DNA from: a virus
Virus record (IMG/VR): IMGVR_UViG_3300009788_000120
Coordinates: 1-53,592 of that record
DNA length: 53,592 nucleotides
Reading direction: 5' to 3' (one strand)
The notes beneath the pieces are model-generated. The model saw only the letters and a list, made by a program, of their open reading frames with translations, ran no database searches and had not been told where the DNA came from. Below are positions 36,684-46,596 of the stretch, one piece after another; the stretch's first letter is position 1; each line of letters starts with the position of its first letter. Made by a program: the position numbers and the translations under genes.

Positions 36684-37399
36684 GACGGTCGCCTGACGCC
36701 GGCGAGGCCTGTGGCCCTCAGATCACTCGATACCGTTGCCAGGGAGGCGCCGACGTCGGCGACGATGGCCTTCAGGTCCCAATGCTCGCCCGCTAGCCAT
36801 CTCATCCGGAGCTCGGCGACCCGAGCCCGTCGGGCTCGTCGAGCCGAAGCCGCCGGGTTGTCGGTCTCCCAGGCTTGCCGCTTTGTAGCCTCGGAGGCTC
36901 CTACAGCGGCCTCCGGAGCTCGGAGTCGAACGAAATTCCTCGACACGTCGAGCCTTCGCGCTATGGCCCGCACGCTGAGCTTCTGTGACGCGAGCTCGTG
37001 CGCCCGAACGGCGAGCCCGTCATAGTCTTTGCCGTTTCTTCGCGCATTCATGATCTCGTCGGCTCGGCTCTTATCGCGGAGCACGCCGCGCCGGCGAAGG
37101 TGCACGTTGACCCATTCTTGCGACGGCGCCGGGTCTCCGGGATGAAGCTCTTTGAGCCTGGCGACGACTCCCCGACAGCTGAGCTGCTCGTCGACGTACA
37201 GCCGCTCCGCCTCGGAAACAAGACGCACCGTGTAGGTTGGGCAGGTTCCCATGTGCCCGGCCTCGCAAAGTCTCTTGTATGCCCATGTTTTCCCGACGTG
37301 GCCGGCGGCCGCGGCCCGCGACAGGGAGCGGCTTCGCTCATACTCTCGCAGCACTCGAGACCTGTGCCAGGCTCCGTATCGACGACGTCGACCCATCAC
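36680..37399 (-). CDS. Basic protein with several helix-turn-helix units
   Basis: 239 aa, strongly basic; ATG at 37399 overlaps the stop of the helicase gene. Four HTH-like units can be drawn: about 20-45, 72-105, 138-160 (LSVRAIARRLDVSRNFVRL) and 208-230 (IVADVGASLATVSSDLRA). The third is the clearest, resembling recombinase or transposase HTHs. No catalytic residues seen. It could be a transcription regulator or a target-recognition partner of the methyltransferase-helicase. Confidence 0.7.
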   Translation of the reverse strand: MMGRRRRYGAWHRSRVLREYERSRSLSRAAAAGHVGKTWAYKRLCEAGHMGTCPTYTVRLVSEAERLYVDEQLSCRGVVARLKELHPGDPAPSQEWVNVHLRRRGVLRDKSRADEIMNARRNGKDYDGLAVRAHELASQKLSVRAIARRLDVSRNFVRLRAPEAAVGASEATKRQAWETDNPAASARRARRARVAELRMRWLAGEHWDLKAIVADVGASLATVSSDLRATGLAGVRRPS

Positions 37400-40300
37400 G
37401 CGGCCCTCGCGGTCAGTGCCCGGTAGATCGCCTCGCCGACCGCCAGGGAGGTGGCGGCCGCCGCCTGGCTCTCGGGATCAGCGCCGCAGGCCTCGAGCGC
37501 TCCCTGAATCGACAGGCCGTCGAGCTGTAACGATGCCGTGACCTTCGCTGCGATAAGCTCGAGGGCGGCCTGCTGCGCGGTCCCGGGGTAGTAGGGCCAG
37601 TCGACGGTGCACGGCCGGTCTTGGCCGATGCGGTGGATGCGACCGTTGGCCTGGCGGTAGGTGAAAGCCGAGTAGTCTGACTCGTACCAGAGCGTGCGAC
37701 AGAAGCTGACGAGGTTGTTGAGCCCGGTGCGGACGGCGACCGGATTGACCAGCATCACCGAGCATTCTGGGCCGTTGATGTGCTGATCGATCCAGGCCTC
37801 CCGCGTTCTGGCCGAAACGCTGCCGGCGTTGAGCCACTCGACCTTGACCCCCAGCTCTTTGCGTAGCATGGACCGGAGCCGATGCGCCAGGTGAGCGGTT
37901 CCCGTGTGCCGGAGGAAGACCATCGTCCGATCGCCGGCGGCCAGCGACTCTCTCAAGCTCTCGACGAGGAAACGCTCTTTAGGCGTCCGGATCGAGGCCG
38001 GGAACTGCCGACCGACTGCCAACACTGGATCTTCGATGTCGCACCCGTCGGTGTAGGCGATCACGAACTCCGGTTGGTCATCGGTACACCGATCCAGATA
38101 GGACGGCAGCTCGAGCAGCTGCCCCAGGAGCTTGCCCTGGAGCGGTGTGAACATATCCCTTTTGATCGCGCTGAGTAGCTCGGTCTCGAGCCGTCGATAC
38201 TCCTCCATGATCTCGCGGTCGAGGTCGGTATCCAGGTCGAGAGGGTGTCTCAGCTCGGACATCGGCGGGAGCTCTTCCTCCAGATCCGTCTTGTGGATCG
38301 TGGCCGCGATCGGCAGCAGATGATCCATGAGGAAGGCCGGCAGGATGCCCGGCGCCTCGCCCAACCGCCGAGCTCGGCAGCTGGTTTCTCGATCCGACTG
38401 GCTGCCGAAGTCGACGTCCTCAACCTTCACGCCCTCTCGAGGCTCGTAGAGCGTCTTGCGGTAGCCGTAGCGATCGACGAAGGCCGCGACGTCGCCGCGG
38501 TCGAAGGTCTCGCGGAAGCGGGCACTGGCCGCCCAAAGATTGGCGAAGAGCGAGCTTGCATACCCTCCCATGAAGGATCCGCTCAGCAGCAAGGTCAGCT
38601 TACCGAGAGCGAGCAACCGCTGCGCGGACTTCGACTGCGCCGAGCCCTGGTTGTTGTTCTCGTGCGCTTCGTCCAGAGCGAAGAGGTCGAATCGTTCCGG
38701 GTAGCGGCGGACGATCGCCTTGGACAACGGGTAGCGTCGAGGCCCGGAGATCGCATGGAGCATCTCGTCGCACGGCTCGCTCTCACTCCAACTGGCAAGA
38801 TTCCAGAGCAGGTCGAGCGCTTTCGAGAGATCCTCTCCCGCGCCCGGCGGGCCGGTGGCCGGCGCCGAGGCGAAGGGCCCATGTCCAATCGAGCAGCCGG
38901 TCATCTCCAGGGCCGCACTCCGGATCATCTGAACCCGCTGGCCGTGTCCGTGCTCGACGCCCCCCATGCCCCTGAGCTCGACGCCCACCGGGTCGCTCGA
39001 GCCCAGGAACCGGGCCAGGCTCTTGACGATCGCCAGCCGCGGGTAGAGCTCGCCATAGACGTCTAGCGACTCCTTGACCAGAAGCCCGGTAACCGTGGCC
39101 AGCGTCCGGCGCAAAACGCCGGCGACGGTTGACGAGTCGGGCGTGACGCTCTTCTGCTTCCCCAGATGTCGGAAGCCCTCGACAACGGCCCGCACCGTCT
39201 CGTCCGTCGGGATCAGACCGCGAGCGGCGACCGACAGCCGCTCGACGTCCACTGCCTCGGCGTTCTGCGGGCGCAGGGTGGTCGCCGTGCATCGCAGGCG
39301 GCGGCGAGCGCAGACCACGGCCTCTTTCGGTAGCCCAGCGCCGCACCGCGGGCAATGATCGACGGACAAGGGCTCGACCGTCGACCCGAGCTTGGCCTTC
39401 TCCCGGCTGAGGATGTAGATCTCGGCGTCGGCCTCGAGATCGGAGATCGACGTCACTTCAATCGCCCGCCAGCCTGGGAGCACGGCGGCCGCCTGATCAA
39501 GCCACGACGACACGAGGTGAGGCGGGCACTGCACGAGCATCCTGCGTACCGTGGGAAGCTCGCCGGCTCGGTCGAATCCCAGGCTCTGGAGCTGGGCGAC
39601 GGTCGCCGCTCGATTGTCGGCCGAGAGGGCGTTAGCGACCTCGAGCGTCACTTGAGACTTCCCGGTGCCGACCTCTGCAACCACAAAAACGTTCTCGAGG
39701 CCGGATCCGGCCGCTGCGATCTTGAGCGTCGCCTGGATTGCGTGAACCTGGCAGCGGTAGGCGGGCCTGGCGGTAGGCGGTAGCTCGATTCGATCGTCGG
39801 GCTCGGCCGGCGAGTGGAGCGGCGGGAACTGCCGTCGCATGAGATCGGCCAGCCCGTCGCTGTAGCAGGCGAGAATGTCGGCCGCGTTCATCTCCTCAAG
39901 CACCTCAGCGCCGCTCGGCGCGGCGCCGGGCACCGGGCTGAAATAGTTGTAGGTGTCGAGGCGCAGAGCGCAGAGCGACAGCCGTGGCTCTTCGACCCGG
40001 GTACTCGAGCTCTCCCCCGCCTTGATCTCTACGCTCTCCCTCGAGAAACGCCCCTTCAGCAGCAGGGATGGATAGCGGTCGGGATCATTGGGCTCGAGGC
40101 GGTGTCCGTTGAAGACGCCGGAGGCAACGGCCAGAGCGAGGTGCGCGGGCCGCGGGGGCATGGCCGTCGTATAGCTTCTGCCGATGAGATCGTCGAGACT
40201 GAGCCCTGGGCCGATGCCGGTGGGCGGGGTCCAGGCGTCGATCGTCGCCCTCAGATCCGCCTGGAGGATTTTGCAACCTTCGAGGCCGGCGCGCAGATCG

Positions 40301-41010
40301 CGATCGAAGGTGTCTGTCAGCTGAACCCGAAGAGGGTTCTGGATCTTTTCCGGCAGAGGCCAGAGGTGATCGGGATCCGCCCAACTCGCGATCAGCGCCT
40401 CGGCCTCGACCCGGGTCTCTTCACTCCGGCAGGGTGATCGCCGGCGTCGAGCGTAGAACGCCACCTGGCTGTAGTCGGTGAACTCGGGCTCCGGGAACTT
40501 CCAGCATCGGTGATCGCGATAGTGAAGGGCCAGGGTGCGCGCGCTGGCCGGCAGCGAGGTCGCCGGCACGATGAATAGGAGCACGCCGCCCGGCGCCAGG
40601 GCCTGTGTGAATCGCTCGAGGAAGCGCTCCTCCAGACGCTTGTGCTCGCGGTCTTGATCGTAGGGCGGATTGAGATGGAGGACGTGCGCGCCCTCGTATC
40701 TCGAGTCCCAGGCCAGGGAGAAGGCGTCGCCCTCGATACATCGGCCACGGCCATGGAGCTTTCGTTGACAGGCCGCGGCCCTCTCCTTCTCCATCTCGCA
40801 AGCCAAGATCTTGGGCCGTAGGTCTTCGCAGTCTTCATACCAGAGTGCCCGAAGCGCATCGATCGCCTCGCCGTCGCCGGCGCACGGATCGAGCAGGACC
40901 AAGCCGTCTTGGTCGGGTAGCTCAATCCCAGAGGCTAAGCTGCTGAGAAGCCGGGCCGGGGTGGGGTAAAATCCGGCCAGGGCTTGGCTCTCGAATCTTG
41001 CCACGTTCAA
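37396..41010 (-). CDS. Methyltransferase-SNF2 helicase fusion
   Basis: 1204 aa. N-terminal part: FYPTPARLL (14-22), SAM-binding LLDPCAGDG (39-47) and catalytic NPPY (114-117), as in DUF6094-type N6-adenine methyltransferases. C-terminal part, from about 415: helicase with Walker A AEVGTGKS (445-452), DEAH (780-783), LLLSGS (motif III) and QANGRIHRIGQ (1120-1130), the SNF2-type motif VI. Between Walker A and DEAH a four-cysteine site (CPRC at 553-556, then C567 and C574) may bind zinc. Fusion of this type occurs in restriction, defence and phage antirestriction proteins. It overlaps the previous gene by 89 bases. Confidence 0.85.
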   Translation of the reverse strand: MNVARFESQALAGFYPTPARLLSSLASGIELPDQDGLVLLDPCAGDGEAIDALRALWYEDCEDLRPKILACEMEKERAAACQRKLHGRGRCIEGDAFSLAWDSRYEGAHVLHLNPPYDQDREHKRLEERFLERFTQALAPGGVLLFIVPATSLPASARTLALHYRDHRCWKFPEPEFTDYSQVAFYARRRRSPCRSEETRVEAEALIASWADPDHLWPLPEKIQNPLRVQLTDTFDRDLRAGLEGCKILQADLRATIDAWTPPTGIGPGLSLDDLIGRSYTTAMPPRPAHLALAVASGVFNGHRLEPNDPDRYPSLLLKGRFSRESVEIKAGESSSTRVEEPRLSLCALRLDTYNYFSPVPGAAPSGAEVLEEMNAADILACYSDGLADLMRRQFPPLHSPAEPDDRIELPPTARPAYRCQVHAIQATLKIAAAGSGLENVFVVAEVGTGKSQVTLEVANALSADNRAATVAQLQSLGFDRAGELPTVRRMLVQCPPHLVSSWLDQAAAVLPGWRAIEVTSISDLEADAEIYILSREKAKLGSTVEPLSVDHCPRCGAGLPKEAVVCARRRLRCTATTLRPQNAEAVDVERLSVAARGLIPTDETVRAVVEGFRHLGKQKSVTPDSSTVAGVLRRTLATVTGLLVKESLDVYGELYPRLAIVKSLARFLGSSDPVGVELRGMGGVEHGHGQRVQMIRSAALEMTGCSIGHGPFASAPATGPPGAGEDLSKALDLLWNLASWSESEPCDEMLHAISGPRRYPLSKAIVRRYPERFDLFALDEAHENNNQGSAQSKSAQRLLALGKLTLLLSGSFMGGYASSLFANLWAASARFRETFDRGDVAAFVDRYGYRKTLYEPREGVKVEDVDFGSQSDRETSCRARRLGEAPGILPAFLMDHLLPIAATIHKTDLEEELPPMSELRHPLDLDTDLDREIMEEYRRLETELLSAIKRDMFTPLQGKLLGQLLELPSYLDRCTDDQPEFVIAYTDGCDIEDPVLAVGRQFPASIRTPKERFLVESLRESLAAGDRTMVFLRHTGTAHLAHRLRSMLRKELGVKVEWLNAGSVSARTREAWIDQHINGPECSVMLVNPVAVRTGLNNLVSFCRTLWYESDYSAFTYRQANGRIHRIGQDRPCTVDWPYYPGTAQQAALELIAAKVTASLQLDGLSIQGALEACGADPESQAAAATSLAVGEAIYRALTARAA

Positions 41011-41764
41011 TATCCTCCTCGAAGTAGAGCGCTGTCTGAGTCTTGATCAGCTCCTCGATCTGGCCGTGACTCGCTCGGCAGAGCGTTGGCCGCTCGAGGC
41101 CGGGGATCTGTTGACCCGGGAAGATGCCGACCTTCGACCCGTAGACGATATTGGTCAGAGGCGTCAGGAGCTTCTCCTCGAGGGCGGCGGCGACCAGCTG
41201 CCGGTGGAAGCCGATATCCTTGACCAGCGGAAGACCGGTTCTCCGATCGAGGTAGGCGGTAGTCACCGCCGAGGTCGCGACCTCGATGGCTTCTTCGTCC
41301 GGCAGATCATCGCCGAGCAATTCGCGCGCCGCCGGGACCTGAGACCTCACCCAGGCGGTCGACGGCGCGGCGATGAAGTCGATGCGCGGCTCCTCGGTTG
41401 ACGGCGGATCGAGGTCGAAGAGCCGCGGCAGGTAGGCGGTGACCACCGCGGTGTCTCCGGGCCCTGGAGCCTGGAGGAATCTGAACCGAGCCGAGCGCGG
41501 GATTTCGAGCTGCTCTTTCCCCCATCGGTCCGTCTCCTTCATTCGTCGGATTTTCCGCCCGGTTCGCACGTTGGCCTGAAACGCTCGGCACTCCTGAGTG
41601 GTGCCGGTGAAGGCCAGCCAAACGGGCCGGAGGCAGGTGTCGGAGGCTCCGCTACCGAGTTCCCAAAGCCGGTTGGCGATGATGTAGCCGATGAGGCGCA
41701 CGGAGAAGGCGCGGCTCTTGCCGCTGTCGTCGTTGGCCTTGGGGCAGACGATGAGGCGATCCAT
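40922..41764 (-). CDS. Hypothetical protein with C-terminal sliding-clamp-like motif
   Basis: 280 aa; ATG at 41764 forms a TGATG overlap with the upstream gene. An N-terminal alpha/beta part (MDRLIVCPKANDDSGKSRAF, WELGSGASDTCLRPVWLAFTG) and a middle helical region are not recognised. The C-terminus QQLSLWD resembles the beta-clamp binding motif QLSLF. The last 89 bases overlap the start of the methyltransferase-helicase in another frame, both readings look real, so the two proteins are probably functionally linked. Confidence 0.65.
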   Translation of the reverse strand: MDRLIVCPKANDDSGKSRAFSVRLIGYIIANRLWELGSGASDTCLRPVWLAFTGTTQECRAFQANVRTGRKIRRMKETDRWGKEQLEIPRSARFRFLQAPGPGDTAVVTAYLPRLFDLDPPSTEEPRIDFIAAPSTAWVRSQVPAARELLGDDLPDEEAIEVATSAVTTAYLDRRTGLPLVKDIGFHRQLVAAALEEKLLTPLTNIVYGSKVGIFPGQQIPGLERPTLCRASHGQIEELIKTQTALYFEEDIERGKIREPSPGRILPHPGPASQQLSLWD

Positions 41765-42938: not shown

Positions 42939-43634
42939 TCACGCCACTCCTCCGAGCAGCGATCCTTGACGCGGCGGCCGAGGCGGGTCGCCGGTTTTCT
43001 TGCGCTTCGGCGTCGGCTCGACGTCGGCGCCGTAGTGGATCATGAGCTCCCGCATCCGCCAGTAGCGCAGGCGAGAGCCGCGGCCGACGTCCTGGTGAAC
43101 GCGCACCGCGACGTGCCGGGCATAGGACAGGGGCATCGAGCGCATCTTGGCGCTCGCCTTGTACGCCTCCCAGAGACCGATTCGTAGGAAATGGCACTCG
43201 GCCTCCGAGCCGTCCGGCAACTCGACTAGCCAGAGAACGCCGGCGACGTTGCCCGCCGCCGCGGCCTTGAGCAAGCCGGCCACCTGATGATCCTTGACCT
43301 GGTCGAAGGCCAGGCGCGCGGCCAGGTCGCCGGTCTTGGCCGCGAACCTTCCCTGCGTCCGCTTGCACTCGAGGGCGAAGACAATTTGCGGGGAGATGCC
43401 GAGCGGCGCCGAGGGACAAAAACAGCCGGCGGCCGGCGCCGTGACTAGGAAGTCAAACGGGTATTTCGGGCTGAATCGCGTGTTGCTACCCGGGGCCTCG
43501 TTGTCACCGCCGAACCACGTTGCGGGATCCGGGAACTTGTAGCCCCAGACGGTCGCCGACCGGACGGGGGAGGCGAGGGGCGGCAGAGACCGTCCCACCT
43601 CCTCCTGAAATATTCCTCCGGGGCCCTTGGCCAT
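42939..43634 (-). CDS. RecU-like Holliday junction resolvase / PD-(D/E)xK nuclease
   Basis: 231 aa. The region KYPFDFLV (Asp61), ALECKRTQG (Glu89-x-Lys91) and FDQVKDHQVAGL (110-121) matches the RecU-type resolvase layout: D, then ExK in the next strand, then the QxxHQ helix. It should cut branched DNA intermediates before packaging or during recombination. Minus operon, downstream of the 509-aa gene with only four bases between. Confidence 0.8.
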   Translation of the reverse strand: MAKGPGGIFQEEVGRSLPPLASPVRSATVWGYKFPDPATWFGGDNEAPGSNTRFSPKYPFDFLVTAPAAGCFCPSAPLGISPQIVFALECKRTQGRFAAKTGDLAARLAFDQVKDHQVAGLLKAAAAGNVAGVLWLVELPDGSEAECHFLRIGLWEAYKASAKMRSMPLSYARHVAVRVHQDVGRGSRLRYWRMRELMIHYGADVEPTPKRKKTGDPPRPPRQGSLLGGVA

Positions 43635-45333: not shown

Positions 45334-46596
45334 TCAGGCGGCGGCCGTCAGGATTCTCTTCGTCTCGGTCACCGCCCGCTCTTTGACGGCCGGCGGTTGA
45401 TCTGAGTGCGAGATCTCGACCCAGGACCGGGCGGGCATCTCGATGACCCGGCCCGCCAGCTCCTGGAGCTCGACGGCCCGATCGTAGTTTTTGACGTCGT
45501 TCGAGGCCCGGGTGATCGCGGAGGTGAAGCCCCACTGGCTGAGGTTGCCGCCCCGGATCAAGTGCGTCAGGACGTCGTTGCTTTCCGGCTCGGTGAGGCC
45601 GAGCTGCTGGCGAGCGGTCTCCACCATGGCGGGCGGTTGGGCGACGATCGGCAGCTGGTCGGCAACGCTCATCCTGGCGCAGACCCGGGCGAAGGCGCCT
45701 TGGTCCATCGCGTGACGGAGCGCATCTCGTAGCTTGAGCAGGAAAGTCTTGTTCATGCTCTGCTGGGTGTCGGAGGCGTACTTGACCTCGCCGAAGACGT
45801 CGACCTCTTTCCCTTTCTGGCGGCCACCCGAGTGCCAGCCGCCGAGCCCGCGGCCCACGGTCATGCCGTTGGAGCAGACCAGAGTATGGATCATCGGCCG
45901 GAGCCAGACGGCGCCGTCCCCGATCTCGGAATTCTTCAGCAGGATGGCGGCGGAAACCGCCTCGCCGACCGCCACCTCGCCCTGGATGCCGGGAAAGACC
46001 ACCTGGAGGTAGAGCTTGTTGCTCGTGACCTCGCAGGATTTGATGTCGATCTCCTCGGTTCGTTCGGAGAGGACGCTGAGCGCCGTCCCCAGCACCACGT
46101 CGTTATCCAGCACTCGGTAGGAGCTCGAGAGGAAGGCTCGCGCGCGACCGTCGAGGGTGCGGACCATTCGCTCTTCGGGCTGACGCCGGAAGTGGGTGTT
46201 GACCGTCTCGCAGAGGAAATCCGGCATCTCGGCCTTGAGCCGCTTGACGTAGGTCATCGGGATCTTCAGGCGCCCGGCGACCTGGGTGAGGGCGTGGGTC
46301 GTGAGGCCGAAGACCTCACCGTGACCCGCGGTGAGCCCGATGCCGCTGGATCTCGTGTCCATCACCTCGAGCTTGAGGGCGCCGCCCGTCGGCACGAGGG
46401 CCTGTTGGGATCGGGTGATCAGCTGCGGCAAGCTGCCGTTGCCCGCGGCGATTGCCTGGGGGTTGGCGATCGGCTTGGGCGGCGGTTCTTCGTACCGTAG
46501 CGCGAGAAGACGGGTGTCGCCCTTGAAATCGCGCTTCTCTTCTGCCTGGCGTTGGACCTCCGCGGACAGGTTTTGGAGGCTTCGTCCCTGGATCAT
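45334..46596 (-). CDS. DUF932-family protein
   Basis: 420 aa; leader GGAGCGAGC directly before the ATG at 46596. DUF932/phage-plasmid-like features include SSSYRVLDNDVVLGTALSVL, CEVTSNKLYLQVVFPG and VCSNGMTVGRGLGGWHSGG. Proteins of this family are widespread in phages and plasmids, often near recombination genes, with unclear function. It is the first gene of the minus operon and is transcribed from the mirror-image promoter at 46653-46681. Confidence 0.85.
   Translation of the reverse strand: MIQGRSLQNLSAEVQRQAEEKRDFKGDTRLLALRYEEPPPKPIANPQAIAAGNGSLPQLITRSQQALVPTGGALKLEVMDTRSSGIGLTAGHGEVFGLTTHALTQVAGRLKIPMTYVKRLKAEMPDFLCETVNTHFRRQPEERMVRTLDGRARAFLSSSYRVLDNDVVLGTALSVLSERTEEIDIKSCEVTSNKLYLQVVFPGIQGEVAVGEAVSAAILLKNSEIGDGAVWLRPMIHTLVCSNGMTVGRGLGGWHSGGRQKGKEVDVFGEVKYASDTQQSMNKTFLLKLRDALRHAMDQGAFARVCARMSVADQLPIVAQPPAMVETARQQLGLTEPESNDVLTHLIRGGNLSQWGFTSAITRASNDVKNYDRAVELQELAGRVIEMPARSWVEISHSDQPPAVKERAVTETKRILTAAA

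Follow-up and report, generated by a model that had tools for sequence, protein, structure and literature searches.

We report here a phage locus that we read, with a probability of about one half, as the fused, phage-borne version of a three-part module by which mobile elements would modify DNA, and which would be recruited by the sliding clamp and would protect from restriction. The locus lies in an IMG/VR virus record of 53.6 kb (the window, i.e. the whole stretch of DNA analysed) that also carries portal, head and tail tape-measure genes. Its three parts occur linked and with catalytic motifs in place, and clamp-like peptides recur at C-termini among the relatives. The module most likely serves to methylate adenines in the DNA of its own element, either while that DNA replicates or afterwards, as a guard against host restriction; an antirestriction or DNA-modification function is the best reading of the sequences.

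The pair lies on the minus strand, where the gene for a 280-aa partner (40922..41764, starting at ATG) precedes that for a methyltransferase–SNF2 fusion (37396..41010), and the partner ATG overlaps the stop of the next gene upstream (TGATG). Both frames of the original prediction, 1204 aa from TTG for the fusion and 280 aa for the partner, are present, and they overlap by exactly 89 nt. The true fusion start is probably the GTG at 41004, because the Met of homologues aligns there and GAGGAGG stands 9 nt upstream; this start gives a product of 1202 aa and an overlap of 83 nt. The fusion begins with a gamma-like adenine methyltransferase region (39886..41004, minus strand, residues 3–375) containing the motifs DPCAG and NPPY (114–117), within which residues 3–197 match DUF6094 (PF19587) at 55 bits, compared to a curated cut-off of 22.8 (E 7.4e-15). 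The SNF2/SF2 ATPase region (37411..39798, minus strand, residues 405–1200) contains GTGKS, DEAH and RQANGRIHRIGQ; residues 773–1156 match the phage DNA-helicase family phrog_62 (E 6e-37), and the first lobe bears a Cys4 insert (38770..39354, minus strand; C553, C556, C574 and C747). These matches, together with retention of the four cysteines in 85–86 of 88–89 relatives, fused and split alike, bear out the predicted fusion with an internal four-cysteine site. Conservation extends to the methyltransferase active-site motifs DPxAG and NPPY (D41 in 81/81, N114 in 80/80, P116 in 80/80 and Y117 in 78/80) and to the ATPase residues K451 of Walker A (85/88), D780 and E781 of the DEAH box (88/89), and Q1120, R1124 and R1127 of motif VI (87/87).

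Profile searches with Pfam, PHROGs, PADLOC and NCBIfam gave no match to a nuclease domain for the fusion, the partner or P200, which favours modification or protection over attack. This result weighs against a restriction-like defence directed at competing phages or plasmids (superinfection exclusion), a very improbable role that might be read from PADLOC, where the methyltransferase matches mad2 (E 7e-11) and the ATPase matches ZorD/DpdE; those matches are weak, partial and confined to generic catalytic domains.

The proposed pairing with the 280-aa protein invited a search for co-occurrence elsewhere, and the pair does co-occur, at 12 viral and four bacterial loci (L033, L035, L036 and L037), the partner sequence having played no part in fetching either set. 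The viral loci are those with full-length, single-frame fusions (1253–1572 aa) in an alignment-based scan of viral contigs. Single-protein scans of these contigs gave no match and a nine-sequence alignment was too diverse as a query; two-sequence alignments were used instead. In all 12 viral loci, about 10 of them independent given the near-duplicates L024/L025 and L026/L027, the fusion is preceded by a partner homologue, with a gap of about 3 kb in L028; the four bacterial loci, which belong to the same clade, likewise have theirs upstream. By tblastn, one phage record was found to carry both genes, LR745208.1 (485 kb). In this phage the two genes are parted by an insert of ∼3 kb with an HNH-like endonuclease frame (L002 12863–13609, minus strand), possibly a homing endonuclease. 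A further irregularity is found in a high-GC MAG contig, where the frame of the partner runs on without a stop through 3 kb of the fusion gene (L035 6184–9954, plus strand), possibly through a frameshift or as a chance open frame.

The window, the four bacterial loci and the viral proteins form a single clade with support of 100/100, in which the window branches near the Acidobacteriota loci (L033, L035 and L037) and outside the large-phage branch. The large-phage fusions (LR745208.1 and IMG/VR loci L017–L027) resemble that of the window in being single proteins of the same clade with the partner upstream, but most of the partners there are tail-less and share hardly any bases with the fusion gene, unlike that of the window.

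Relatives of the DUF6094 methyltransferase and the SNF2/DEAD helicase were found on 101 plasmid records, mostly as two neighbouring genes, in Pseudomonas, Vibrio, Thermus, Paenibacillus and other hosts, and throughout these the methyltransferase motifs, the ATPase motifs and the four cysteines are kept. The pKLC102-type split pair of plasmids and ICEs (PF19587) has the same methyltransferase family and the same Cys4-insert ATPase as the window, but as two genes rather than one polypeptide. In an Enterobacter plasmid, the DUF6094 gene is itself divided into several consecutive frames and looks degraded (L013 6914–9304, plus strand). Just as the partner gene adjoins the fusion in the window, the split pair is adjoined (e.g. 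L012, L015 and L007) by a gene for a ∼200-aa family that we name P200, and that has no family name in Pfam or NCBIfam.

Searches of Pfam, PHROGs, NCBIfam and PADLOC gave no match to the window partner, which had been described as unknown; it is instead a divergent member of this third family that accompanies the dyad on plasmids and ICEs, with 280 aa and a clamp-like tail as compared to ∼200 aa. Profile comparison, iterative HMM search and predicted folds agree on this; the case is strong for the partner family as a divergent P200 and indirect for the window sequence itself. The P200 HMM was trimmed to the domain (fused proteins taken whole pull the iteration into the helicase) and built without any fused-clade partner; it retrieved 65 P200 sequences, 57 beside the methyltransferase and seven fused to the helicase N-terminus, and its further matches, in a set of 8268 ORFs, were partner ORFs only (L024/L025 at 8e-5, L018 at 1e-3, L020 at 0.09 and L022 at 0.19). 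Comparison of partner and P200 by hhalign was suggestive with small profiles (E 0.02), and deeper profiles then gave E 3.7e-6 (probability 87%), collinear over 167 columns, with E 1.5e-4 (probability 51%) in the reverse direction. Direct BLASTP of the partner against one ICE P200 was negative, and the window partner is connected to P200 by way of the profile of its own family. Two AlphaFold models, one for the window partner (pLDDT 82, pTM 0.80) and one for a P200 (pLDDT 90, pTM 0.84), have the same order of strands and helices when their elements are compared, with extra helices inserted in the partner. Neither the partner nor P200 drew a convincing match from the PDB with Foldseek and VIA (highest Z 4.5 and 5.2, with many tied rows).

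The partner ends in QQLSLWD (40925..40945, minus strand), a clamp-binding-like tail coded within the gene overlap, and the attention that the original prediction drew to this motif was warranted. Similar peptides recur at the C-termini of split helicases. The published clamp-binding consensus is QL[SD]LF or QxxLF, in which position 5 matters (PMC12309361); QLSLW fits four of the five positions, and its Trp at position 5 departs from QxxLF. With split helicases clustered at 60% identity, 10 of 19 clusters have a peptide resembling a clamp-binding motif among their final 40 residues (e.g. QLRLL, QLTMF, QLFLF and QLMFDF), as against 0.64 clusters expected by shuffling (never more than 3 in 1000 rounds) and a rate of 1.1% among internal windows; these enrichment figures are descriptive, the pattern having been fixed by hand after some tails had been seen, but the contrast is nevertheless large. 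Helicases of the pKLC102 type and of proteobacterial ICEs have no such C-terminal peptide, nor do helicase C-termini of the fused clade of the window, except in L021 (QIGMGW). A human-gut contig with a phage annotation encodes a P200–helicase fusion that ends in QLSIFDFAA and is followed by a gene for a DnaN-like sliding clamp (L004 3282–7518, plus strand). We considered whether the viruses whose partners lack a tail encode their own DnaN; PF02768 had no match in the 16 viral records, several of which are fragments. With no clamp gene in these records, the host clamp would be needed.

The tail of the window partner may be incidental, and the module may methylate against restriction with no coupling to the clamp, acting on entering DNA as DarB does. 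We consider this unlikely. In its favour, a clamp-like tail is absent from the partners of 10 of the 12 viral loci, and DarB, the archetype of the methyltransferase–SNF2 dyad, protects injected DNA in cis (PMC5512222). Against it, the partner in L033, the locus most closely related to the window, is extended by a homologous stretch, ...THSQLCLDFAVA, that ends in QLCLDFAVA (motif QLCLDF) and likewise overlaps its fusion; partners in L026/L027 have QLKLW and a short tail at the end; and C-terminal clamp-like peptides recur across the split relatives. 

The clamp-like partner tail is a hint that the mark is laid down during DNA copying. We tentatively suggest a replication-coupled, self-marking machine of mobile elements, in which P200, the DUF6094 methyltransferase and the SNF2 motor would be tethered to the clamp and nascent element DNA would be methylated behind the fork, the peptide having moved between subunits: it would sit at the helicase C-terminus in split forms and, in part of the fused clade, on the P200-type partner, within the gene overlap.

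As to the suggestion that the module might be new, the dyad was already published: coupling of an SNF2 ATPase to an adenine methyltransferase in mobile elements, and its relation to DarB antirestriction, have been described (Iyer 2017, PMC5512222), as has the presence of DarB in the virion (PMC5512222). DarB of phage P1 and other dyads share with the window an arrangement in which a single phage protein carries an adenine methyltransferase and, after it, an SNF2-clade ATPase, but DarB (2255 aa) has a methyltransferase of the N6_Mtase/Eco57I type, not DUF6094, and no CxxC pair. The ATPase regions of DarB and the window are distantly related (hhalign E 1e-9); with the DUF6094-family HMM and hhalign the ATPase alone aligns, and the methyltransferase domain does not. 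Membership of the window fusion in the DarB family is ruled out on this domain. P200 was not found in the half of P1 that was searched. The module is real and conserved, a phage-borne fused variant of the published dyad, with two features for which we found no description: P200 as a component, and a clamp-like tail that recurs. The literature searched names DUF6094 in no paper and describes neither the tail nor P200; one earlier review may mention neighbours of the pair.

Among genes near the module, named by reading sequences and the annotations of relatives and counted by neighbourhood cluster, are dnaN (6), SSB (13), RadC-like (8) and ArdC-like (4) genes, with CHC2 primase and Rad52-like genes as further neighbours. 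Such company, and the clamp-like tails, would also suit a replication, repair or recombination factor whose methylation marks strand or self for mismatch repair, initiation control or gene regulation. This reading seems to us decidedly unlikely: ArdC-like genes occur in the same neighbourhoods, and published work links the dyad to antirestriction (PMC5512222). Some loci from ICEs and MAGs have DUF932 genes close to the split module (L013 and, by reading, L047, L091, L094 and L099), and the window encodes a DUF932-like protein (45334–46596, minus strand; phrog_1362, E 3e-39). In the same gene block as the module is a Holliday-junction-resolvase-like protein (42939–43634, minus strand; phrog_843, E 3e-9).

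The original prediction had also drawn Dam and a multi-HTH protein into the module. Dam is genuine (PF05869, E 3e-23), and the other protein has a single HTH rather than several, with weak support (Pfam E 0.002, phrog E 2e-4). Both genes lie downstream and overlap or abut the operon, but neither occurs near the relatives within the fetched flanks, except for a distant Dam in L030; they are probably local companions from outside the module.

In the mechanism that we favour, the P200 accessory protein, the DUF6094 adenine methyltransferase and the Cys4-SNF2 translocase would form a complex, which the sliding clamp behind the fork would recruit, here via the tail of the partner. The SNF2 motor would carry the complex along duplex DNA while the methyltransferase modified adenines on newly copied element DNA, and DNA so methylated would escape cutting by host restriction enzymes. 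Each time a mobile element replicates in a cell, its DNA has to be concealed from host restriction. A widespread module that couples methylation to translocation, and probably to clamp binding, would explain how this is achieved, and would give conjugative plasmids and phages one common mechanism, with P200 as a marker by which the module can be found and tested.
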